From assembly GCA_945881835.1 (NCBI GenBank), contig CAMCVP010000011.1:1-64000 (forward strand): a stretch of 64,000 nucleotides of DNA, in the 5' to 3' direction. A program made the position numbers and the translations under genes. The notes under the pieces were generated by a model. It was not told the DNA's origin. It did not search any database and saw only the letters and a list, made by a program, of their open reading frames with translations. Below, piece after piece: positions 5,510 to 63,100 of the stretch. This stretch comes from Chryseobacterium gleum (GTDB lineage Bacteria > Bacteroidota > Bacteroidia > Flavobacteriales_D > Sanyastnellaceae). Positions within the stretch are counted from its first letter, which is position 1; each line of letters opens with the position of its first letter.

Positions 5510-5593
5510 GCCATCGGCATTCGTGCAAAGCACATTAGTCTGAAAGACATTCGCCATCGGCATTCGTCCGAAGGACATTCGTATCTTTGATAC
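5510..5593. repeat. ATTC-punctuated mini-hairpin array A
   Basis: Six tiny hairpins follow each other: GCC-ATC-GGC; GTGC-AAA-GCAC; GTCT-GAA-AGAC; GCC-ATC-GGC; GTCC-GAA-GGAC; GTATC-TTT-GATAC. Each is separated from the next by ATTC (once ATTA). Stems change but stay complementary. The last hairpin ends on the base before the ATG at 5594 and contains the promoter box of that gene. Confidence 0.85.
5582..5589 (+). promoter_or_regulatory. -7 promoter box (TAtcTTTG) inside the last array hairpin
   Basis: TATCTTTG matches TAnnTTTG exactly and is followed by four bases and the ATG at 5594. It forms the left arm and loop of hairpin six of array A, so repeat and promoter are the same sequence. Confidence 0.65.
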
Positions 5594-35564: not shown

Positions 35565-35574
35565 CAGTCAATTC

Positions 35575-35732
35575 ACCAAAGGTGTCATCCGCAAAGCGGT
35601 CATCAATCGTAGATTGTCATCACAACGTGTTGTGTCATCCGCAAAGCGGTCATCAATCGTAGATTGTCATCACAACGTGTTTTGTCATCCGCAAAGCGGT
35701 CATCGCCTCTGGCGAATTGTTCATAACAATTG
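35575..35732. repeat. TCAT-punctuated mini-hairpin array (class 2)
   Basis: Nine hairpins joined by TCAT: CACC-AAA-GGTG; CCGC-AAA-GCGG; CAATC-GTA-GATTG; CACAAC-GT-GTTGTG; then CCGC, CAATC and CACAAC units again (the last with one mismatch); CCGC again; CGCC-TCT-GGCG. An AATTGTT-CAT-AACAATT hairpin follows without spacer. Three units form a 50-bp tandem repeat. It occupies most of the gap between the nupG stop and the DUF3127 gene. Confidence 0.85.
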
Positions 35733-43559: not shown

Positions 43560-43608
43560 CCTTCTTCGAAGGATGACGGCGAAGCCGATGACCAGCGAAG
43601 CTGGATGA
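43560..43608. repeat. ATGA-punctuated mini-hairpin array (class 2, reverse orientation)
   Basis: CCTTC-TTC-GAAGG; CGGC-GAA-GCCG; CCAGC-GAA-GCTGG, separated by ATGA, the complement of the TCAT spacer at 35575. Begins on the base after the ccmF stop codon. Confidence 0.8.
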
Positions 43609-43626: not shown

Positions 43627-43684
43627 GTCGAAGACATTCGTCTGAAAGACATTCGTGCAAAGCACATTCGCCCTTTGGGCATTC
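43627..43684. repeat. ATTC-punctuated mini-hairpin array (class 1)
   Basis: GTC-GAA-GAC; GTCT-GAA-AGAC; GTGC-AAA-GCAC; GCCC-TTT-GGGC, each followed by ATTC. The last spacer touches the stop codon of the convergent acyltransferase gene. Confidence 0.85.
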
Positions 43685-52386: not shown

Positions 52387-52440
52387 GTCGAAGACATTCG
52401 CCGCAGGCATTCGTTGAAAACATTCGCCCGAAGGGCATTC
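52387..52440. repeat. ATTC-punctuated mini-hairpin array B
   Basis: GTC-GAA-GAC; GCC-GCA-GGC; GTT-GAA-AAC; GCCC-GAA-GGGC, each followed by ATTC. The first 40 bases recur with one mismatch on the far side of the Pycsar-like gene (array C). Confidence 0.87.
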
Positions 52441-52520: not shown

Positions 52521-53048
52521 ATGAGTACTGAGAAACACGATAACACGAACTGGATGTACATGTTGCGAACGACGCAGCAGCACCATGTTCAGTTAAGTTC
52601 ATTTGCAGATCAAAAAGCGAACATCATTATCGCTAGTAATTGCATTATTTTCTCAATAACTCTCGCTCGTATTGAAACTGCAATGGGATATTGGGGTGTT
52701 TGGTCGTTACTAGCAACTTCGGTATTGTGCATTATTACAGCAGTAATGGTAGTAGCGCCGTTGTCGTTACCAAAACAACGCCCTTCCTTCGATTCGAAAA
52801 ATTTCAATCCGTTGTTCTTTATGCACTTCTGCGCCTATTCTCTAGAAGATTATGACAGTCGCATGAAACAGATTATGGAGACCAAAGAAGAAGTTCAAGA
52901 AGCCATGATTCGCGACATCTACCAAATAGGAAAAGTACTTTCAACGCGCAAATACCCCTTCCTGAAAATCAGTTCTGCCATCTTCATCGGCGGAATGCTC
53001 CTAAGCCTTGTGCTATTCTCTGTGCAAATTGCTTTAGACAAACTCTGA
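52521..53048 (+). CDS. Pycsar-effector-like membrane protein (PycTM, DUF5706)
   Basis: 175 residues. LRTTQQHHVQLSSFADQKAN followed by IIIASNCIIFSITLA is the N-terminal PycTM pattern: a helix ending in FADxKA, then the first membrane helix. Further membrane helices lie at about 62-80 and 148-170. In Pycsar immunity such proteins form membrane pores on binding cCMP or cUMP made by a partner cyclase. No cyclase gene is seen within the window. The gene stands alone between two near-identical hairpin arrays (B and C). Confidence 0.75.
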   Translation: MSTEKHDNTNWMYMLRTTQQHHVQLSSFADQKANIIIASNCIIFSITLARIETAMGYWGVWSLLATSVLCIITAVMVVAPLSLPKQRPSFDSKNFNPLFFMHFCAYSLEDYDSRMKQIMETKEEVQEAMIRDIYQIGKVLSTRKYPFLKISSAIFIGGMLLSLVLFSVQIALDKL

Positions 53049-53057
53049 TATAAAATC

Positions 53058-53120
53058 GTCGCAGACATTCGCCGCAGGCATTCGTTGAAAACATTCGCGC
53101 AGCATTCGTCATTGACATTC
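53058..53120. repeat. ATTC-punctuated mini-hairpin array C
   Basis: GTC-GCA-GAC; GCC-GCA-GGC; GTT-GAA-AAC; GC-GCA-GC; GTC-ATT-GAC, each followed by ATTC. Every unit is self-complementary. With array B it forms imperfect direct repeats around the Pycsar-like gene. Confidence 0.88.
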
Positions 53121-62935: not shown

Positions 62936-62998
62936 ATCGAAATTTCATTTCGATCAATCACTTCGTGATCAATTGCGCTGCAATCAATCGCTTTGCGA
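62936..62998. repeat. TCAA-punctuated mini-hairpin array (class 3)
   Basis: TCGAAAT-TTC-ATTTCGA; TCAC-TTC-GTGA; TTGC-GCT-GCAA; TCGC-TTT-GCGA, separated by TCAA. Same design as the other classes with another spacer and T...A closing pairs. Confidence 0.82.
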
Positions 62999-63010: not shown

Positions 63011-63100
63011 GTCGAAGACATTCGCCTGAAAGGCATTCGTGCTTGCACATTCGCCTGCAAGGCATTCGTTGCTCCGCAACATTCGCCCTTAGGGCATTTG
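63011..63100. repeat. ATTC-punctuated mini-hairpin array D
   Basis: GTC-GAA-GAC; GCCT-GAA-AGGC; GTGC-TT-GCAC; GCCT-GCA-AGGC; GTTGC-TCC-GCAAC; GCCC-TTA-GGGC, each followed by ATTC (last ATTT). Lies 48 bp upstream of the MNT-HEPN gene and 13 bp from the class 3 array. Confidence 0.88.

Follow-up and report, generated by a model that had tools for sequence, protein, structure and literature searches.

Hairpin arrays with class-specific S23/IVP genes suggest an unrecognised kind of spreading repeat system in an uncultured Flavobacteriales genus

The first 64,000 nt of contig CAMCVP010000011.1 (the whole stretch analysed here, hereafter the window) contain, in the gap between the nupG gene and a DUF3127 gene, an array of small hairpins joined by a TCAT spacer, which belongs to a family of arrays with at least eight spacer classes: TCAT, ATTC, CCTC, CA/ATCAAT, AGA, AGG, CCAAC and ATTCC. 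Each spacer class goes with one clade of S23/IVP genes (PF05635, 23S_rRNA_IVP; TIGR02436), which suggests that the arrays and these genes together represent an unrecognised kind of spreading repeat system. With about even chances, the TCAT array represents a non-autonomous solo copy of that system, the full form of which would be array, S23/IVP gene, array. Comparisons within the genus, one of uncultured Flavobacteriales, used nine genomes (G000 to G008, 71–99% complete), with G000 being the 2.53 Mb genome of the window; spacer classes are lettered A (TCAT), B (ATTC), C (CCTC), D (CA/ATCAAT) and F (CCAAC).

Direct reading confirmed that the array consists of nine hairpins joined by eight spacers, all TCAT. 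The original prediction had extended it to position 35732, but the TCAT array ends at 35714, and the remainder is a hairpin that abuts it without a TCAT spacer:

35574–35714, + strand: class A (TCAT) array of nine hairpins and eight TCAT spacers, read directly; orthologous gap in six species
35574–35584: hairpin CACC-AAA-GGTG
35589–35599, and again 35639–35649: hairpin CCGC-AAA-GCGG
35604–35616, and again 35654–35666: hairpin CAATC-GTA-GATTG
35621–35634: hairpin CACAAC-GT-GTTGTG
35671–35684: second copy of the CACAAC-GT-GTTGTG hairpin, CACAACGTGTTTTG, with a single stem mismatch
35689–35699: hairpin CCGC..GCGG
35704–35714: hairpin CGCC-TCT-GGCG
35589–35638 and 35639–35688: 50-bp tandem block of three hairpins, the predicted tandem copies differing at 1 of 50 positions
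35715–35731, + strand: hairpin AATTGTT-CAT-AACAATT, abutting the array without TCAT spacer; right edge of the gap in six species

Hairpins open with C and close with G, and because the closing pair in TCAT arrays is C-G, their fixed part is GTCATC. The mismatched arm, GTTTTG, had been interpreted as a decayed copy, and this is borne out by G002, which reads GTTGTG at that position.

The array is one of many. With this spacing, G000 has 101 + 119 TCAT triples versus 8 + 8 for the reversed pattern, some of the 220 being plainly non-hairpin, and over 864 kb of G000 the density of same-spacer hairpin triples is 39.0 per 100 kb, versus 2.1 in dinucleotide-resampled sequence. The AGG class was found at S23/IVP loci and the other classes with a detector for same-spacer hairpins. 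Class A arrays are present in eight of the nine genomes (G000 included, G007 having none), and class B arrays in seven.

A total of 28 PF05635 genes were identified in eight of the nine genomes; none was found in G007, which is also without class A to C and class F arrays. In a careful tree 27 of these genes group together, separately from the 28th gene and 15 outside proteins (100/100), and 21 of the 27 have a named spacer class alongside (TCAT 2 genes, ATTC 5, CCTC 2, CA/ATCAAT 2, AGG 2, AGA 2, CCAAC/CAAAC 5 and ATTCC 1). Arrays were detected on both sides of the gene at 18 of the 20 S23/IVP loci given to the hairpin detector, and the linker motif was present within 350 nt on both sides at 19 of 20 loci checked, while 3/588 called genes in the 864 kb were flanked at up to 350 nt on either side by arrays of one class (A to E), one of these being the PycTM gene of the window. 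Placing the class labels on the tree needs 10 changes, where the minimum is 9 and the shuffled mean 26.0, with 0/200 shuffles as low; outside and unlabelled genes were treated as their own groups, and near-copies help the low count. Sister clades carry similar linkers (ATTC/CCTC and AGA/AGG), and the arrays beside the gene are inverted for ATTC, CCTC, ATTCC and four of the five CCAAC genes, and mostly so for AGA.

The six group genes of unnamed class have repeats recognised by eye, which are purine-rich or of TTAC type. One S23/IVP clade (L396, L397, L400) is flanked by purine-rich repeats (TTAAGAGAAGG type), which also adjoin some ATTC arrays (G000:C1 about 237700 and 238560). The 28th gene (G000:C12:37042, L251) lies outside the main group and has an 18-bp repeat alongside, with GAAACAGAATGAG units. 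There were no Rfam matches at gathering score in 18 S23/IVP loci.

For most classes array dosage is also higher where the cognate gene is present. It was counted as triples per genome, including the arrays beside the gene, and is given for G000 to G008 in order:

Class A: 153, 62, 51, 48, 102, 23, 71, 0, 10; gene only in G000, with a 37-residue piece of it in G002
Class B: 44, 46, 5, 61, 64, 12, 73, 0, 0; gene in G000, G001, G003, G004 and G006
Class C: 18, 10, 63, 14, 10, 41, 11, 0, 10; gene in G002 and G005
Class D: 56, 46, 7, 60, 38, 15, 118, 1, 3; gene in G001 and G006
Class F: 33, 13, 60, 45, 48, 77, 86, 0, 8; gene in G002 to G006

Gene presence separates the counts completely in three of five classes (B, C and F), each gene-bearing genome having more triples than any other, and class A is highest in its single gene-bearing genome. 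A joint permutation of genome labels supports the match (5e-5; 3.5e-4 without G007). Gene-side arrays make up 32/153 of the class A triples and 1 to 8 per genome for classes B and C. Shorter, hairpin-type class F matches number 7 (G000), 0 (G001), 22 (G004) and 2 (G008) in the fully listed genomes.

Several observations weigh against a gene-driven repeat system. Class D is not separated by gene presence (56 in G000 and 60 in G003 without the gene, 46 in G001 with it), seven genomes that lack the class A gene still have many class A arrays, the class F counts include matches to a 15-bp tandem, and the statistics here, the joint permutation among them, are uncorrected for descent. Beside both TCAT genes and one class D gene the arrays point the same way, and for AGG their orientation is mixed. 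Most classes are found at syntenic places, two ORF6N genes, a DinB gene, a ParDE pair and the PycTM gene are also located between arrays, and we know of no catalytic site in the S23/IVP fold. These features bear on a serious rival, in which the arrays are recombination landing pads where S23/IVP genes, like other accessory genes, insert or become trapped; mutation alone, through slippage, conversion between arrays and switching of template from one arm to the other, would create them and keep them palindromic. The other genes between arrays and the persistence of class A without its gene give this explanation real weight, and the free change in array numbers and the recombined flanks of class B genes (see below) also fit; neutral pads would not lead one to expect a single spacer class for each protein clade, the match in dosage, or the repeats next to S23/IVP genes of other genera that have no such pads, and we consider this rival possible but distinctly less probable than not.

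Of the array-bracketed genes, ORF6N, DinB and ParDE (G000:C1:268151-269014, 545562-546425 and 467610-468125; G000:C6:68536-69156) all have same-class arrays, and these open reading frames (ORFs) were missed by the gene caller. The 15-bp tandem (GTTGTTGGAACTTGC type, at G000:C1:310356-311389 and G004:C57:49728-50789) is CCAAC-like with a different period. AGA-class arrays at G000:C1:187470-187629 and 165971-166163 have a 12-bp period and are partly inside predicted ORFs.

Evidence on movement comes from the flanks of the array-bracketed genes. The two copies of the class A gene with arrays in G000 share the gene and its arrays (-290 to +504) and differ in their 5′ outer flanks, the comparison covering the 5′ side, as one contig ends 241 nt past the gene. 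Class B genes have two kinds of 5′ flank (G000 and G001 versus G003, G004 and G006) and two kinds of 3′ flank (G000 and G006 versus G001 and G004; G003 left out), and these mixed combinations are as expected from recombination through the arrays. The CCTC and class D elements are syntenic, the CCAAC genes have a common 5′ flank and not always a common 3′ flank, and the AGA pair has almost nothing in common. With most classes syntenic, clear recent movement is therefore rare.

Arrays of different class replace each other at the same gap between species. The nupG-DUF3127 gap contains the TCAT array in G000 and G002, with identical unit order, two opposed ATTC arrays in G001, G004 and G006, and is near-empty in G005, with AATTGTTCATAACAATT at its right edge in 6/6 species. 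As G001 is the closest to G000 in nupG (98% identity, versus 94-95% for the others) and has ATTC rather than TCAT, array class does not track nupG. At C9:60696 and C9:68638, G000 has class A and G001 class D; the second gap also has class A in G004, and G001 has a complete class D element there, S23/IVP gene included. The proposals that the TCAT arrays form a second class of the same design as the ATTC arrays, and that both occupy the same gaps, are supported, the latter at the nupG-DUF3127 gap itself. Turnover of units is block-wise, with 10 versus 27 units at one orthologous gap. In 51 array comparisons, in which some pairs count twice, once in each direction, 126 units were aligned, 78 of which are identical; the aligned units differ at 49 loop letters, and 17 stem pairs have changed on both sides with pairing kept versus 16 on one side, of which about five two-sided and six one-sided changes are independent as judged by eye. 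The stem covariation on which the original prediction depended is therefore present in the unit comparisons; repair of mismatched stems, a point it raised as a check, is a conjecture.

The stems vary yet stay paired, with the spacer and closing pair fixed. When all units enclosed by consecutive linkers are taken from runs of at least three, unfiltered for palindromes, there are 361 class A units (some loci overlap), 120 of them distinct. In the 35 distinct 11-nt units the inner positions 2, 3 and 4 are paired in 34, 32 and 35, versus 13.2, 12.7 and 31.2 after shuffling, and use three, three and two types of pair. Class A arrays also occur as opposed pairs ≤80 nt apart (nine same-class pairs), always in the order minus then plus, which flip around the centre GATGAC-GCTCCGCGAAGCG-GTCATC in five of nine pairs, with two being one or two bases off and two unlike. 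Class D arrays flip around another centre, AATCGGAACGATT, and the units adjoining the class A centre recur across loci.

The TCAT hairpins grow and shrink in frame within a coding sequence. In all five species read, the fdhD gene (PF02634; L250:16463-17254) contains a class A array in frame, with 3 to 9 inner units depending on the species and open frames of 260 to 290 codons, and here a paired swap (CGAGC..GCTCG and CGAAC..GTTCG) leaves the encoded Glu-Arg-Ser-Ser the same. The class A and B arrays in gaps are in convergent gaps in 14/28 cases, while convergent gaps make up 46/287 of all gaps; they are also found in tandem and divergent gaps, on either strand. The convergent excess, together with RNA folding of the array that is better than that of shuffled sequences (z -3.79), is what would be expected of RNA elements, either transcription terminators or stabilisers of mRNA 3′ ends, selected at gene ends. 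Such a role is nevertheless improbable, given that arrays lie within fdhD too, on both strands, and in tandem as well as divergent gaps, and given the many A/T-rich stems and the stronger folding with DNA parameters (z -5.49), and several classes would be unexpected for a single job. A known RNA family is also rejected for the array, as the single Rfam match (E 0.33) was far under the gathering score.

All eight S23/IVP proteins of the genus that were scanned match TIGR02436, and an AlphaFold2 model gives a four-helix bundle with a predicted local distance difference test score (pLDDT) of 93.5, closest in structure to the S23 proteins 2rld (best) and 2gsc. Avd (4dwl) and the diversity-generating retroelement (DGR) ribonucleoprotein 8ub7 (8ub7_E) follow at weaker E-values, and the match to the Avd profile is weak. 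Both the profile match over its curated cut-off and the four-helix fold thus place these proteins in the S23/IVP family.

A bolder reading, at somewhat under even chances, is that S23/IVP proteins act as the specificity factors of unrecognised, order-wide self-propagating arrays, each lineage making or spreading own-class repeats at its gene and in trans at gene ends, the repeats here being linker and hairpin; several such systems would coexist, vie for the same gaps and bring along genes of defence, toxin-antitoxin and phage type. In the explanation given at the outset, the Avd-like four-helix protein would recognise single-stranded RNA or DNA by the linker and hairpin of its own class, and may bind and transpose the arrays, so favouring the spread or retention of its own class. 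Reading of linker and hairpin by the protein would explain why linker and pairing are conserved and the stem letters are not. Units would be gained and lost through tandem duplication and deletion, and recombination between arrays would swap classes and neighbouring genes. We infer a system like that of repetitive extragenic palindromic (REP) sequences and their REP-associated tyrosine transposases (RAYT), built on an unrelated protein, with recombination pads as a serious rival.

A short tag beside a small hairpin would also be expected of REP-like repeats mobilised by an IS200-type Y1 transposase, and G000 indeed has two Y1 genes, one near a class D array (G000:C1:448496-449264). As driver of the arrays the Y1 transposase was rejected on its distribution, as PF01797 is present in 4/9 genus genomes with no match in G002, G005, G008 or G003 (96% complete, with 48 class A and 61 class B triples), and the spacers are neither GTAG nor CGTC, so that this explanation is largely refuted and very improbable.

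PF05635/TIGR02436 matches occur in 41 of 60 genomes searched. In other genera, too, many S23/IVP genes are flanked by short inverted repeats, for the most part with no hairpins. Three or more inverted 8-mers are common to both flanks for 38/43 outside S23/IVP genes versus 353/911 control ORFs (p 6e-11). Compared with 34 controls with mostly ORF-free flanks the counts are 38/43 versus 16/34 at three 8-mers (p 1e-4) and 31/43 versus 3/34 at six (p 1.2e-8), the threshold of six having been set after seeing the data. The genus genes in this flank test were 26 of the group plus the 28th gene, as the flank of L389 is too short, and a recount free of N gave unchanged 8-mer counts. When 45 outside proteins were added in a quick tree of poor resolution, four of them fell inside the genus group, and their genes have short repeats alongside without clear hairpins (such as GTGAATG units in G016). 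Hairpin arrays are at background level in 17 of 18 genomes sampled from other genera (20 to 100 kb each), and the remaining genome, G019, has a plain heptamer tandem rather than hairpins; the detector missed the non-hairpin repeats next to S23/IVP genes, which were found by eye and then tested. The G019 tandems (TCACTAG/TCGTTAG) are at contig ends (L343, L344), with two S23/IVP genes elsewhere in that genome.

A scan for the exact class A centre gave seven stretches, six from four metagenome-assembled genomes titled Flavobacteriales or Bacteroidetes, and the seventh from Oscillospiraceae, within ordinary sequence; the centre was found in no viral contigs. Sample names hint at lakes as the habitat of the host, though this is a guess. 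GTCATC triples outside the genus were rejected as arrays in the six genomes read, five of them having coding repeats of aspartate type and the sixth a single match within ordinary sequence. A viral origin was likewise rejected, as no varied-hairpin array was seen in 80 viral stretches checked among the matches listed (at least 120, with a loose GTCATC pattern); a few matches in these 80, repeated copies for the most part, had arms three to five pairs long.

The other arrays of the window are:

43560–43608, − strand: class A array, joiner ATGA on the + strand, three hairpins (CCTTC-TTC-GAAGG, CGGC-GAA-GCCG and CCAGC-GAA-GCTGG) right after the stop codon of the upstream gene
About 43627–43680, + strand: class B (ATTC, CATTCG) array in the same gap
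5548–5581, + strand: class B (ATTC) array
52395–52426, + strand: class B (ATTC) array upstream of the PycTM gene
53066–53097, + strand: class B (ATTC) array downstream of the PycTM gene, with two inner units the same as at 52395–52426
62953–62988, + strand: class D (ATCAAT) array
63019–63085, + strand: class B (ATTC) array

The reversed TCAT array next to an ATTC array at 43560–43608 had been predicted and was found as described, in a gap with nine class A/B units versus three in the G001 orthologue. The PycTM gene (Pycsar effector, 52521–53048) has flanking ATTC arrays that share inner units and orientation. The gene content at this site differs in G001 and G004, and neither gave a clean empty site for the gene at 52.5–53.0 kb, as they differ there by several insertions. 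Overall, the observation from which this analysis started stands and its interpretation does so in part; it had missed the presence of at least eight classes, the placement of arrays in a coding gene and in all types of gap, the class A flips and the class-specific S23/IVP clades.

The match of clade to repeat would offer a first testable role for the PF05635/TIGR02436 family, for which the literature examined gives no function, and there is a code to break, namely which S23/IVP protein reads which linker. Palindrome maintenance also becomes measurable, as the stems keep their pairing through sequence change, including within a protein-coding gene. If the arrays are recombination pads only, they would still help to explain why related species exchange accessory genes and gene ends so fast; if the S23/IVP proteins drive their spread, they would be a second, unrelated counterpart to REP-RAYT. 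Arrays linked to S23/IVP genes were unreported in the titles and abstract openings searched, a coverage outside which most subscription papers and bioRxiv lie.

Palindromic repeats are tolerated in frame inside protein genes as Rickettsia palindromic elements, which the in-frame palindromes in fdhD resemble, although the units described here are much shorter, are in arrays and have other tags. The Rickettsia elements have a CGTC tag (PMC3733652). The four-helix protein is also like the Avd protein of DGRs (PMC10053308) in its related fold (4dwl, 8ub7_E) and weak profile match; no DGR template or variable repeats or reverse transcriptase turned up, and no search aimed at them was made.

The 23S rRNA intervening sequences encode S23p and are described in PMC4990558 as selfish and possibly once mobile, with complementary ends and tandem heptamers upstream of the ORF. 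Such sequences are characteristically excised by RNase III. The elements described here have a gene of the same family and array ends, which are inverted in ATTC, CCTC, CCAAC, AGA and ATTCC and not at the TCAT genes. In contrast to intervening sequences, they are located between protein genes, outside rRNA (18 loci), and there are many gene-less arrays. In REP/REPIN-RAYT systems (REPIN, REP doublet forming hairpins), many dispersed small tagged palindromes, often as inverted pairs, flank the cognate gene, with each gene lineage having its own repeat and solitary copies elsewhere (PMC3116915, PMC3733652). The arrays share with these that they are class-specific, flank the cognate gene, and are dispersed, many-copy and mostly extragenic. 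They differ in having a four-helix S23/IVP protein rather than a Y1 transposase, in their linkers (TCAT, ATTC, CCTC, CA, AGA, AGG, CCAAC and ATTCC, and no GTAG/CGTC tag), in stems that vary (120 distinct class A units) rather than being conserved within a family, and in their long head-to-tail arrays. By the tag, stem and Y1 tests this repeat system is not REP-RAYT, nor is it a 23S intervening sequence.
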